From NCBI GenBank assembly GCA_944323635.1, contig CALUTH010000007.1, forward strand, positions 1-32,381: 32,381 nucleotides of DNA, read 5' to 3'. Of this stretch, positions 25,149 to 31,951 are shown in pieces (position 1 is the first letter of the stretch; the number at the start of each line of letters is the position of its first letter). Position numbers and translations under genes: made by a program. This DNA comes from Candidatus Gastranaerophilales bacterium (GTDB lineage: Bacteria > Cyanobacteriota > Vampirovibrionia > Gastranaerophilales > Gastranaerophilaceae). The notes under the pieces are model-generated. The model had not been told where the DNA came from. It saw only the letters and a program-made list of their open reading frames with translations, and did not search any database.

Positions 25149-25226
25149 GGGAGCGTAGCTCAGTTTGGTTAGAGCGCATGCCTGTCACGCATGAGGTCGC
25201 GAGTTCGAGCCTCGTCGTTCCCGCCA
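25149..25226 (+). tRNA. tRNA-Asp (anticodon GTC)
   Basis: A full cloverleaf can be drawn. The acceptor stem pairs GGGAGCG with CGTTCCC (one G-T pair); the D stem is GCTC/GAGC; the anticodon stem is CATGC/GCATG with loop CTGTCAC (anticodon GTC at 25184-25186); the T stem is GCGAG/CTCGT with TTCGAGC loop. The 3' CCA is encoded (25224-25226), giving 78 nt. Its last 21 nt and the next two bases are repeated exactly at 25394-25416. Confidence 0.97.
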
Positions 25227-28928: not shown

Positions 28929-28958
28929 TTTACAAAAAAAAACAATTAGTTGTAAAAT
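28929..28958 (+). promoter_or_regulatory. Promoter for the 28981 gene
   Basis: TTTACA (28929-28934), an 18-bp spacer and TAAAAT (28953-28958), followed by AGGAG at 28965-28969. The expected transcript start is near 28965. Confidence 0.5.
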
Positions 28959-28980
28959 ACTATTAGGAGATTATCACAAA

Positions 28981-29628
28981 TTGCCTGCCAATAACTACGA
29001 AAATTTTGATAATATGGAAACTTCGTTTCGCAAATCTTCCGTAATTCAGGAACGATTGGGACTGGTTTCGTCTCATATGTACAAACAGTTTCTTGATTAT
29101 CAGCATGCAACGATTAATACTACGGAGCTTTTCGCTGAAATGATTGACAATTTTAAAGTTATGGCAGACTCCTTTAAACAATCATTTGCGGCACGCGGAA
29201 TTGCAACCCAGAATATTTATGTCGACTATGACAAGGATAAAACGGTTGTTGTGATAAACATCCTCTGGCATACAATCAGCCTTACAACCCGTTGTAACTT
29301 TGAACCGCAGGCGTTGTTCAGAGAAAATAAACCGCCGTTTTTCTGCGGCAGGGTTATGGCGCTTAACGGTAATTACAACGATATTATTGAGGGGGCAAAA
29401 ACTCGTTCTGATATTATGGAAAGGCTCCTTGAAAAAGAAGTTGCGTCGCTCTATGTTCCGGCGGATAAGTCACAGGGCTGTATTTTTAAGATTAAGCACC
29501 TTTCTAACCGCGAGTTTTTCCTGAATAATACTGATGCCTCCAGAGAATTTGTTTTAAAGGTGGTTGAAACCATTTGCGGCGGCGGTGTGTATCACGAAGA
29601 AGGACAGCGCAAGAGTTTTAATATATAA
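28981..29628 (+). CDS. Protein of unknown function
   Basis: The reading starts with TTG at 28981 (215 aa), with AGGAG 11 nt upstream. A later ATG at 29014 (204 aa) is the alternative, and an earlier in-frame TTG at 28918 lies before the promoter and is unlikely. Residues 15-60 are helical. The middle has a beta-rich stretch (IYVDYDKDKTVVVINILWHT) and a cysteine-containing RCNFEP segment. Residues about 155-175 are FKIKHLSNREFF. No signal peptide or membrane segment. I recognise no family. It lies upstream of fliD on the same strand (about 270 nt apart). Confidence 0.62.
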   Translation: MPANNYENFDNMETSFRKSSVIQERLGLVSSHMYKQFLDYQHATINTTELFAEMIDNFKVMADSFKQSFAARGIATQNIYVDYDKDKTVVVINILWHTISLTTRCNFEPQALFRENKPPFFCGRVMALNGNYNDIIEGAKTRSDIMERLLEKEVASLYVPADKSQGCIFKIKHLSNREFFLNNTDASREFVLKVVETICGGGVYHEEGQRKSFNI

Positions 29629-29900
29629 AATCCCCGCTTGTCAAAATCAAAAAAATTTAGTAGTATATATACATCCACTATACAAATTATATCCAATCGA
29701 CAGAGAGAGTGCCGGATGCTAGTATTGGTATGTGTTTGGTGCTTATTTTAAAAAAATTACAATTTTCTGAAAACGTTGTTATATATTTGCAAAATGTGGA
29801 ACATGATTAATAAGGCAGTTTAAACAATAAAAAAAAAGTAGGCACTTGAGAGTTTAAGGACGCTTGGGCGTGCCTGTTATATACTTATGGAGACACTAAG
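29629..29900. other. Leader region before fliD
   Basis: No gene. AT-rich in the first 200 nt. Near 29843-29871 GGCAC...GTGCC may form a hairpin in the fliD leader. No sigma-28 promoter of the TAAA-N15-GCCGATAA type is recognisable. GGAG at 29889-29892 is the fliD ribosome site. Confidence 0.35.
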
Positions 29901-30890
29901 TTGAGCGTAATCGAATTTAGCGGTTTAGTAACTGGTTTGGATACCAATTCGTGGGTGAGCGCACTCACGGCGCTTAAGAACGCCAAAGTTGAGGAGTTAC
30001 AAACAGAGAGAGCTGCCGTTGTTGATCTTAAGGATGTGGTTTCGGGGATAAAGTCGTTTTTTACGTCGTTCAGGAGTTCGTTGGAAAAGCTTACGGATGC
30101 TAAATTTGGCGTGGATGCGATGGATATATTTGTACAGAATCTTGCAAATTCATCGGATCCTTCAAAGGTTACGGCTACCGCTTCTTATACTGCCTCAAGA
30201 GATACTTATGAAGTAGGCGTTACGCAGCTTGCTTCCAGAATTGAAGGCTTAACCGTAAATATCAAAGGACTCACAGAAGGTGAATACGTTACAATTAGGG
30301 TTGAACGCGATACACAGTCAATTATCGACGCTGTTCAGGAAACTCTTGACGCATACAATACTCTTGTTGCTGAACTCAATACGGTTCTGGCGATTGGCGG
30401 TGATTTACACAGCGATACGGCGTTGAAGAGCCTTAAAAATCAGATAACTTCTATGTTTACATCCCGCGGAACAAACGGAGTAACACAGTTTAGAAACCTT
30501 GCTGCAATCGGAATTTCTACGGAAAGCGCAAGTTCTGCAATGCCGTCGGATATTTATTCACTGTATCTTGATGCTGATAAGTTTGAGAATGCACTCAATA
30601 CCTCGGAAGATGAGGTTAAACTCCTGCTTGTCGGTACAGAGGATAACCCTGGTATTTTGACAAGGGTTGAAACAATTGTTGAAAATATGCTTGCAACAAC
30701 AGGCTATTTCTCAACAAAAACCAAATCACTTGACAGAGAAATCAGTCAGTATGATGCTAAAATCGAAAAAGCACAGGCTCAGGCGGATTCTTATAAAGCT
30801 ATGCTTGAAAATAAATTCCAGAATATGGAGCTTTTGTATTCGCAAATGCAGAGTGCGTATACTAACGTATTCTCAGGCGGGCTTGTTTAG
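29901..30890 (+). CDS. fliD: Flagellar hook-associated protein 2 (FliD), short form
   Basis: FliD caps the growing flagellar filament and helps flagellin fold at the tip. The start is TTG at 29901 with GGAG 8 nt upstream (MSVIEFSGLVTGLDTNSWV). FliD_N covers about 1-115. It joins directly to a FliD_C-like part, from about IEGLTVNIKGL (115-125) through VERDTQSIIDAVQETLDAYN to the end with the usual coiled-coil tail (LDREISQYDAKIEKAQAQ, YSQMQSAY). The protein has 329 aa, while most FliD proteins have 400 or more: the central D2/D3 domains that normally interrupt the two halves are missing. Flagellin and other flagellar genes are not in the window. Confidence 0.88.
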   Translation: MSVIEFSGLVTGLDTNSWVSALTALKNAKVEELQTERAAVVDLKDVVSGIKSFFTSFRSSLEKLTDAKFGVDAMDIFVQNLANSSDPSKVTATASYTASRDTYEVGVTQLASRIEGLTVNIKGLTEGEYVTIRVERDTQSIIDAVQETLDAYNTLVAELNTVLAIGGDLHSDTALKSLKNQITSMFTSRGTNGVTQFRNLAAIGISTESASSAMPSDIYSLYLDADKFENALNTSEDEVKLLLVGTEDNPGILTRVETIVENMLATTGYFSTKTKSLDREISQYDAKIEKAQAQADSYKAMLENKFQNMELLYSQMQSAYTNVFSGGLV

Positions 30891-31033: not shown

Positions 31034-31951
31034 ATGATTAACTACGATGATTTATTGAAGAAAATTCCTAAGGTCAAAAAAATTCTTGATGACGGGGCAA
31101 ACACAAACCTTTATCACTATACAAAACCCGAAAAGCTGTTGAGTATTCTGGAATCCGGTACTATAAGATTTTCCAATGCGCTTTATTTGAATGATAAAGA
31201 GGAGGTTACATACTCGTATAAACTGATTGTAAGTCTTATCAATGAAATGAAAGGGTTGAATGAAGAGCTGTTTTCAAAGATTAAAGAGTACTTTTATAAA
31301 AAATACAAAAATATAATTGACGGGGATGACAATTTTTTAAACAAATATGAATATTATACAATTTCGTTCTCTACAGACAGCGATAACCTTACTCTCTGGA
31401 ATAATTATTCCAAGGGGCAGACATATACCGGTTATAATATCGGGTTTTGTAAAAAAGACCTGATTGACGACATGGAACGGCAGGGGTTTAAATCTGTTTA
31501 CGGCAATATTATTTATAATCAGGATGTACAAATTACCGTATTAAAACTGATTTTTGATAAATGGAACAAACAGTATGAAAAACTGCTGACCTGCAGAAAA
31601 ACCGCAAAAAATAATGAAAAATTGCAGGATACACTCTTTGAACTGATTGATATTTTAAGTATTATAAGTTTGTTTTTTAAAAACCCGTATTTCAGAGACG
31701 AAAAAGAATACCGGATAATATTTATCAGCCATTTCAGTACAAACACGTATAAACAAACAAAGATATTTGAAAAGAACGGGTTGTTTATTCCGTATATTGA
31801 ATACAGATTTTTGAAACGTACGGTAAGTTCAATAAATATAGGTCCTACACTGGATGAGAATATTTTTTACACAAGCACCTGCCGTATGCTTGCCAATTTC
31901 GGGTACGAAAAGAAAACGATAAACCGGTCTAAAATTCCTTTAAGGTATTGA
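31034..31951 (+). CDS. DUF2971 domain protein
   Basis: This 305-aa protein carries typical DUF2971 features: NLYHYTKPEKLLSILESGTI and RFSNALYLNDKEEV at residues 25-60, YYTISFSTDSDNLTLWNNYS at about 107-126, TGYNIGFCK, and DEKEYRIIF near 228-236. The H-Y-T...L..IL pattern is reminiscent of the ADP-ribosyltransferase-like fold, but I have not verified that for this family. DUF2971 proteins are often accessory genes of unknown job, and some occur near defence genes. Here no restriction, toxin or phage gene is adjacent, so a defence role is not supported by context. Confidence 0.85.
   Translation: MINYDDLLKKIPKVKKILDDGANTNLYHYTKPEKLLSILESGTIRFSNALYLNDKEEVTYSYKLIVSLINEMKGLNEELFSKIKEYFYKKYKNIIDGDDNFLNKYEYYTISFSTDSDNLTLWNNYSKGQTYTGYNIGFCKKDLIDDMERQGFKSVYGNIIYNQDVQITVLKLIFDKWNKQYEKLLTCRKTAKNNEKLQDTLFELIDILSIISLFFKNPYFRDEKEYRIIFISHFSTNTYKQTKIFEKNGLFIPYIEYRFLKRTVSSINIGPTLDENIFYTSTCRMLANFGYEKKTINRSKIPLRY

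Follow-up and report, generated by a model that had tools for sequence, protein, structure and literature searches.

A 329-residue FliD variant in a Gastranaerophilales bacterium, probably the naturally headless derivative of a giant FliD

FliD, or HAP2, caps the flagellar filament and combines a D0/D1 leg, in which N- and C-terminal helices are packed together, with a D2/D3 head that makes up the plate. In a stretch of 32,381 nucleotides from a Candidatus Gastranaerophilales bacterium (the whole stretch is referred to here as the window), one gene encodes a FliD from which most of this head is missing. Is such a protein a reduced form of an ordinary FliD, a product of genome assembly, a remnant on its way out or a working cap subunit of an unusual kind? 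We put at roughly 0.6 the probability that this protein, termed mini-FliD here, is a real, derived headless FliD that was cut from a giant and serves in the cap, either as a minimal subunit or in a mixture with others. Judged from sequence comparison, the case for orthology with a giant and for deletion from it is strong; the case for a present function is moderate.

The mini-FliD gene and its predicted fold

The gene lies at 29901..30890 on the forward strand, as do the features of its locus described below, and reads as what a deletion in frame has left of a giant FliD-like gene. It is an open frame of 329 aa with a TTG start, a TAG stop and no internal stop codon between 29901 and 30890. 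Within this single frame two Pfam families exceed their curated cut-offs: FliD_N (PF02465) at residues 11-112 (profile positions 1-95 of 97, 51.3 bits against a cut-off of 24.8) and FliD_C (PF07195) at residues 112-318 (profile positions 22-236 of 236, 114.9 bits against 25.4). Frame and matches bear out the first-pass annotation, which had described FliD_N running straight into FliD_C in a protein of 329 aa, with the frame kept and both ends intact. The start of FliD_C (~21 positions) is missing as well, whereas the two giants scanned match this profile from position 1.

The AF2 model of mini-FliD (mean pLDDT 59.6, 7 sequences in the alignment) keeps the long helices of the leg. Its N-terminal D0/D1 part, delimited by the model and the FliD_N match, comprises codons 1-82 (29901..30146), with predicted helices at residues 15-66 and 70-82, and its C-terminal D1/D0 part, delimited by the FliD_C match, the model and structure comparison, comprises codons 138-329 (30312..30887), with helices at residues 138-165, 173-187, 225-234, 236-243, 252-264 and 269-326. 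Between helices 70-82 and 138-165, the model shows, at low confidence, three short strands within a ~55-residue stub (codons 83-137, 30147..30311); residues 78-135 have a pLDDT below 50, and confidence is poorest around the deletion junction described below.

In a structure comparison with the model, six of the entries at ranks 1-10 carry FliD in their title and the other four are flagellar cap complexes. Their Z scores run from 14.3 to 18.3, the best being that of E. coli FliD (5H5V, Z 18.3); a hook-filament junction entry and flagellin filaments follow at Z 9.2 and below. Mini-FliD shares FliD_N, FliD_C and the D0/D1 fold with the filament cap proteins of E. coli (5H5V) and Salmonella (cap complex 9GNZ), the leg being recognised by structure comparison at moderate model confidence. 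A D2/D3 head was not found. D2 and D3 had both been annotated as absent; according to the model, D3 and most of D2 are missing, whereas part of D2 may persist as the stub. The ordinary FliDs listed in a survey of the phylum have frames of 477-641 codons, compared with 329 aa here. The window also contains a tRNA-Asp (gtc) at 25149-25226.

Orthology with giant FliDs and loss of the module array

We searched 59 genomes of relatives, including the genome of the window, and then seven genomes of the genus. Both ends of mini-FliD correspond to both ends of one giant frame of 2408-2435 codons in G002, G003, G004 and G005 (2400, 2404, 2402 and 2402 aa from the start codon, respectively); in G006 the giant is split over two contigs (C99 and C103), the ends of which lack an exact overlap. 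Amino acid identity between mini-FliD and its five counterparts is 88-95% in the N-terminal part and 78-90% in the C-terminal part. The flanking genes, which served as synteny anchors, are identical in kind in all five relatives: an upstream gene without a Pfam match (28942..29628) and a downstream gene of the DUF2971 family (31034..31951). Since flanks and ends agree, the five giants are taken to be orthologs of mini-FliD. Within the genus, the locus thus holds a giant in five of seven genomes (one split), the mini form in one, that of the window and the only genome of its species from which this form is known, and no such gene in G001, where an empty site lies between the same flanking genes (L089, 4673-4736). 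A tree built from three flanking proteins groups G003 with G004 (100/100); its other three forks are weak.

What sets the intact giants of the genus (L063, L055, L056 and L064; 2400-2404 aa) apart from mini-FliD, with which they share locus, flanks and both ends, is the head. Using a profile made from one giant and iterated (self-BLAST of one giant gave no repeats), we detected 19 tandem modules of ~105 aa between FliD_N and FliD_C in each of the four, spanning residues 127-2163 in the G003 ortholog. The ordinary FliD of the window genome has two modules and mini-FliD has none, and shuffled controls (five for each of 19 proteins) gave no module match at the same threshold. The tandem array of the giants is absent from mini-FliD, which had been annotated as a FliD without D2/D3 domains. 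The missing head stands, whereas the ancestor appears to have been a giant of ~2,400 aa with 19 modules; derivation from an ordinary FliD by loss of D2/D3 is rejected by synteny and by the C-terminal part, which is 43% identical to the ordinary FliD compared with 78-90% to the orthologs.

A model of five modules (mean pLDDT 65.5, pTM 0.27) consists of strand-strand-helix-strand-strand-strand units, one after another, with linkers of low confidence between them. A structure search with it gave no convincing whole-chain match, the top hit being an ice adhesin at a probability of 0.23, followed by FliD and FlgE chains with weak scores. A beta-grasp domain has previously been described in FliD (PMC1949818); together with the predicted strand order, this suggests that the modules are probably beta-grasp folds. 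Small matches to ubiquitin-like families are taken to reflect the fold and not homology, and Flagellin_IN exceeds its Pfam cut-off only in the G191 piece among the giants scanned.

In the alignment with the G003 ortholog, the gap in mini-FliD covers residues 112-2186 of the latter (2,075 residues), that is 6.2 kb in frame, and removes the whole array plus slightly more, with ends ~15 and ~24 residues outside the 2,037-residue array. Per-base comparison with five relatives places the junction (VTQLAS/RIEGLT) at 30233..30236, the ~4 bp of junction homology being assignable to either side. Recombination between long repeats was considered as the cause and rejected: in the ~200-bp flanks the longest shared word is 8 bp and lies off the junction, in the four giants. 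Instead, an illegitimate deletion at the ~4-bp match probably excised the 6.2 kb from the giant gene, removing all 19 tandem head modules and joining the FliD_N end to the FliD_C region.

The direction of the change is indicated by a second giant FliD of the same genome, which lies in pieces on contigs C153 and C152 and has counterparts of 3002 aa in G003 and 3167 aa in G002. It carries the same kind of array; against two pieces of the G006 middle, its best segments are 45% and 63% identical, and the others 27-49%. The array therefore predates the split between the paralogues and the mini form is derived, and the opposite reading, in which relatives gained an array that the window genome never had, is rejected. 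In G005, a 535-codon C-terminal piece of the second giant, seemingly identical in both places, stands at the start of contigs C22 and C11 (L047 and L048), which may reflect two copies or a shared contig end.

Decay, assembly and strain mixture

The derived gene could be a decaying remnant: the giant would be a dispensable accessory whose function was destroyed by a deletion that stayed in frame by chance, leaving an open frame on its way out. The empty site of G001 shows that a genome of this genus can manage without the gene, and an ordinary FliD and the second giant remain in the window genome. Against decay, a random cut would rarely land ~15 and ~24 residues outside so long an array, the frame holds no stop, and dN/dS (Nei-Gojobori) is not raised. 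Between the window and the five orthologs it is 0.046-0.056 for codons 1-112 and 0.028-0.068 for 210 codons of the C-terminal part, compared with 0.022-0.074 and 0.045-0.075, respectively, among the orthologs themselves. These values give no sign of relaxed selection on mini-FliD, with dS to the window of 0.7-2.4 being near saturation, at which a recent change is invisible, and a very recent loss of function would look identical.

The signals 5' of the gene have been retained along with its start codon, which likewise speaks against decay. A leader element at 29851..29866, AGTTTAAGGACGCTTG (AGTTYAAGGACGCTTG), recognised by alignment with the regions 5' of both giant fliD paralogues, is conserved before both of them in the genus. 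In the window genome it occurs exactly only twice, before mini-FliD and before the second giant; allowing up to two mismatches gave four matches, compared with one for the reversed control. Its AAGGA core resembles a CsrA site, and CsrA may act at the leader. The sequence GGAGA at 29889..29893 is likely the ribosome-binding site, and a conserved promoter-like stretch at 29776..29802 (TTGTTATA...GTGGAAC), identified by alignment and with similar sequence 5' of the paralogues, may act in transcription. Orthology, loss of the whole array, an open frame, a retained upstream element and no loosening of selection make up the computed support for a real headless FliD, and we regard decay as a possible but somewhat unlikely explanation.

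A second explanation is that the middle of the gene was skipped during genome assembly. The assembly has 154 contigs, two of which (C153/C152) divide the second giant between them. The overlap of their ends is exactly 77 bp and points to k=77 as the assembly word; a collapse would need a long shared word and is not to be expected at the junction, where just ~4 bp are common. The 16-mers around the junction do not recur in the 11 other loci of this genome that were checked, and the window contains no N. In a search with two pieces of the G006 middle, the deleted part was not found on any other contig of the genome, for which completeness is given as 99.71%, and no closer copy was found than the second giant and the ordinary FliD (43%), which accounted for the matches. 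Assembly collapse at the junction is thus unlikely on the sequence evidence, and a skipped middle seems to us quite improbable. Of the two observations that the first-pass annotation had named as telling against its reading, a longer protein in relatives was indeed found, whereas a deletion made by assembly is not supported by the sequence evidence.

Least credible of all is a strain mixture or reversible switching, in which some cells bear the array, others lack it and only the short form entered the assembly: module number does vary widely among the proteins examined (0, 2, 19 and up to 35), but the deletion ends lack a recombinable repeat, hence there is no evident way to restore the array, and the assembly holds a single form.

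Headless and giant caps in the lineage

If mini-FliD is a real headless FliD, can it still serve in a cap? The annotation had suggested that a minimal FliD would imply a different cap or a strongly reduced filament tip. A reduced tip does not follow for the whole cell: besides mini-FliD, the genome encodes an ordinary FliD (a 583-codon frame on contig C3) and the second giant, so mini-FliD is not its only cap. Nor does the loss of the head necessarily leave a FliD without a working cap. In P. aeruginosa, flagella remain functional when FliD lacks both D2 and D3, although motile spread falls slightly but significantly. Short tags can take the place of the head, as can the larger one of H. pylori, motility being lowered with tags of 8 or 10 histidines; the match to the filament was located in the terminal helices (PMC8533109). 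As in mini-FliD, the leg is kept and the head removed. The engineered protein differs in that mini-FliD is natural, derives from a 19-module giant and occurs beside other FliDs; its stub of ~55 residues resembles neither of the replacements described there, 4-10-residue tags and the entire H. pylori head, and the comparison is an analogy only. Since P. aeruginosa FliD builds flagella without D2/D3, a functional minimal cap subunit is plausible for mini-FliD by analogy. With its D0/D1 leg kept, the product would probably be exported and placed at the filament tip, acting as a minimal or mixed-cap subunit, alone or together with the ordinary FliD and the second giant, although with two other FliDs present it could be dispensable.

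Reduced flagellins, which might have accompanied a reduced cap, were not found: Flagellin_N has seven matches above cut-off in this genome, including one cut by a contig start and a weaker one (a 331-codon frame) that is perhaps FlgL. One flagellin on contig C6 (L093:4533-8615) reaches 1,357 aa, with Flagellin_N and Flagellin_C at its ends and a middle that resembles, by eye, RTX-type glycine-aspartate repeats, for which Pfam called no RTX family. Giant flagellins (PMC6248924) are likewise far longer than usual flagellar proteins, but they are flagellin and not cap, and in mini-FliD it is the enlarged part that was lost.

The giants themselves extend beyond this genus. In our sample of the order, at least 160 of 383 genomes have a match to mini-FliD, and many of the matches listed lie in frames of 1,200 to 6,603 codons, mostly in genera g25 and g55 (our labels) besides g1. 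Soo et al. (PMC4040986) infer two or more losses of flagella within this class, in keeping with the many genomes that give no match. In a sample of the phylum, FliD_C is matched in 51 of 292 genomes: 13 strong matches in 10 genomes of g1 and g25 have frames of 1,386-4,706 codons, a few of them truncated where a contig ends, and four weak ones (19-35 bits) in three further genomes of the same family have frames of 3,022-6,511 codons. Outside the family, no frame above 714 codons was found in the 17 matching genomes of this sample. The only other FliD_C frame above cut-off with fewer than 450 codons, among the 51 matching genomes, is one of 346 codons in G403, the matches of which begin at base 115 of the contig.

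The longest giants are FliD-like, single open frames of 6603 (G191, L092+L096), 6137 (G318, L097), 6018 (G291, L098), 5285 (G309, L100), 4706 (G122, L090) and 4376 codons (G143, L099), each with FliD-like ends and 28-35 modules. In the G191 giant, which belongs to another genus, GLUG repeats occur within the C-terminal 1,992 codons, as does a match to the N-terminal region of M26 peptidases. We count this stretch in favour of an adhesive or spacer role for the array, and the part lost from mini-FliD would most likely have been such a long, exposed structure at the flagellar tip. No paper on a giant FliD was found by title or abstract start, in a search that took in a minority of the subscription literature.

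Mini-FliD is a real and unusual FliD variant, and the reading that fits best is a giant that lost its head in nature. Headless FliDs in the literature searched were products of engineering alone; mini-FliD is their natural counterpart and offers a natural test of the purpose of the cap head. With its full-size orthologs, a family of giant flagellar caps comes into view in a gut lineage, and these giants, of up to 6,603 codons, are the larger surprise. They raise the questions of how proteins thousands of residues long travel through the flagellar channel, what an arrayed cap binds and whether the head and leg of FliD evolve independently. One tentative and, in our view, rather unlikely idea is that flagellar tips of gut Gastranaerophilales carry giant-FliD arrays of 19-35 beta-grasp-like modules, that module number is evolvable and that mini-FliD mixes or competes with the giants and so tunes the number of arrays at the tip. 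If true, a working headless subunit would set how many tip arrays a flagellum displays.
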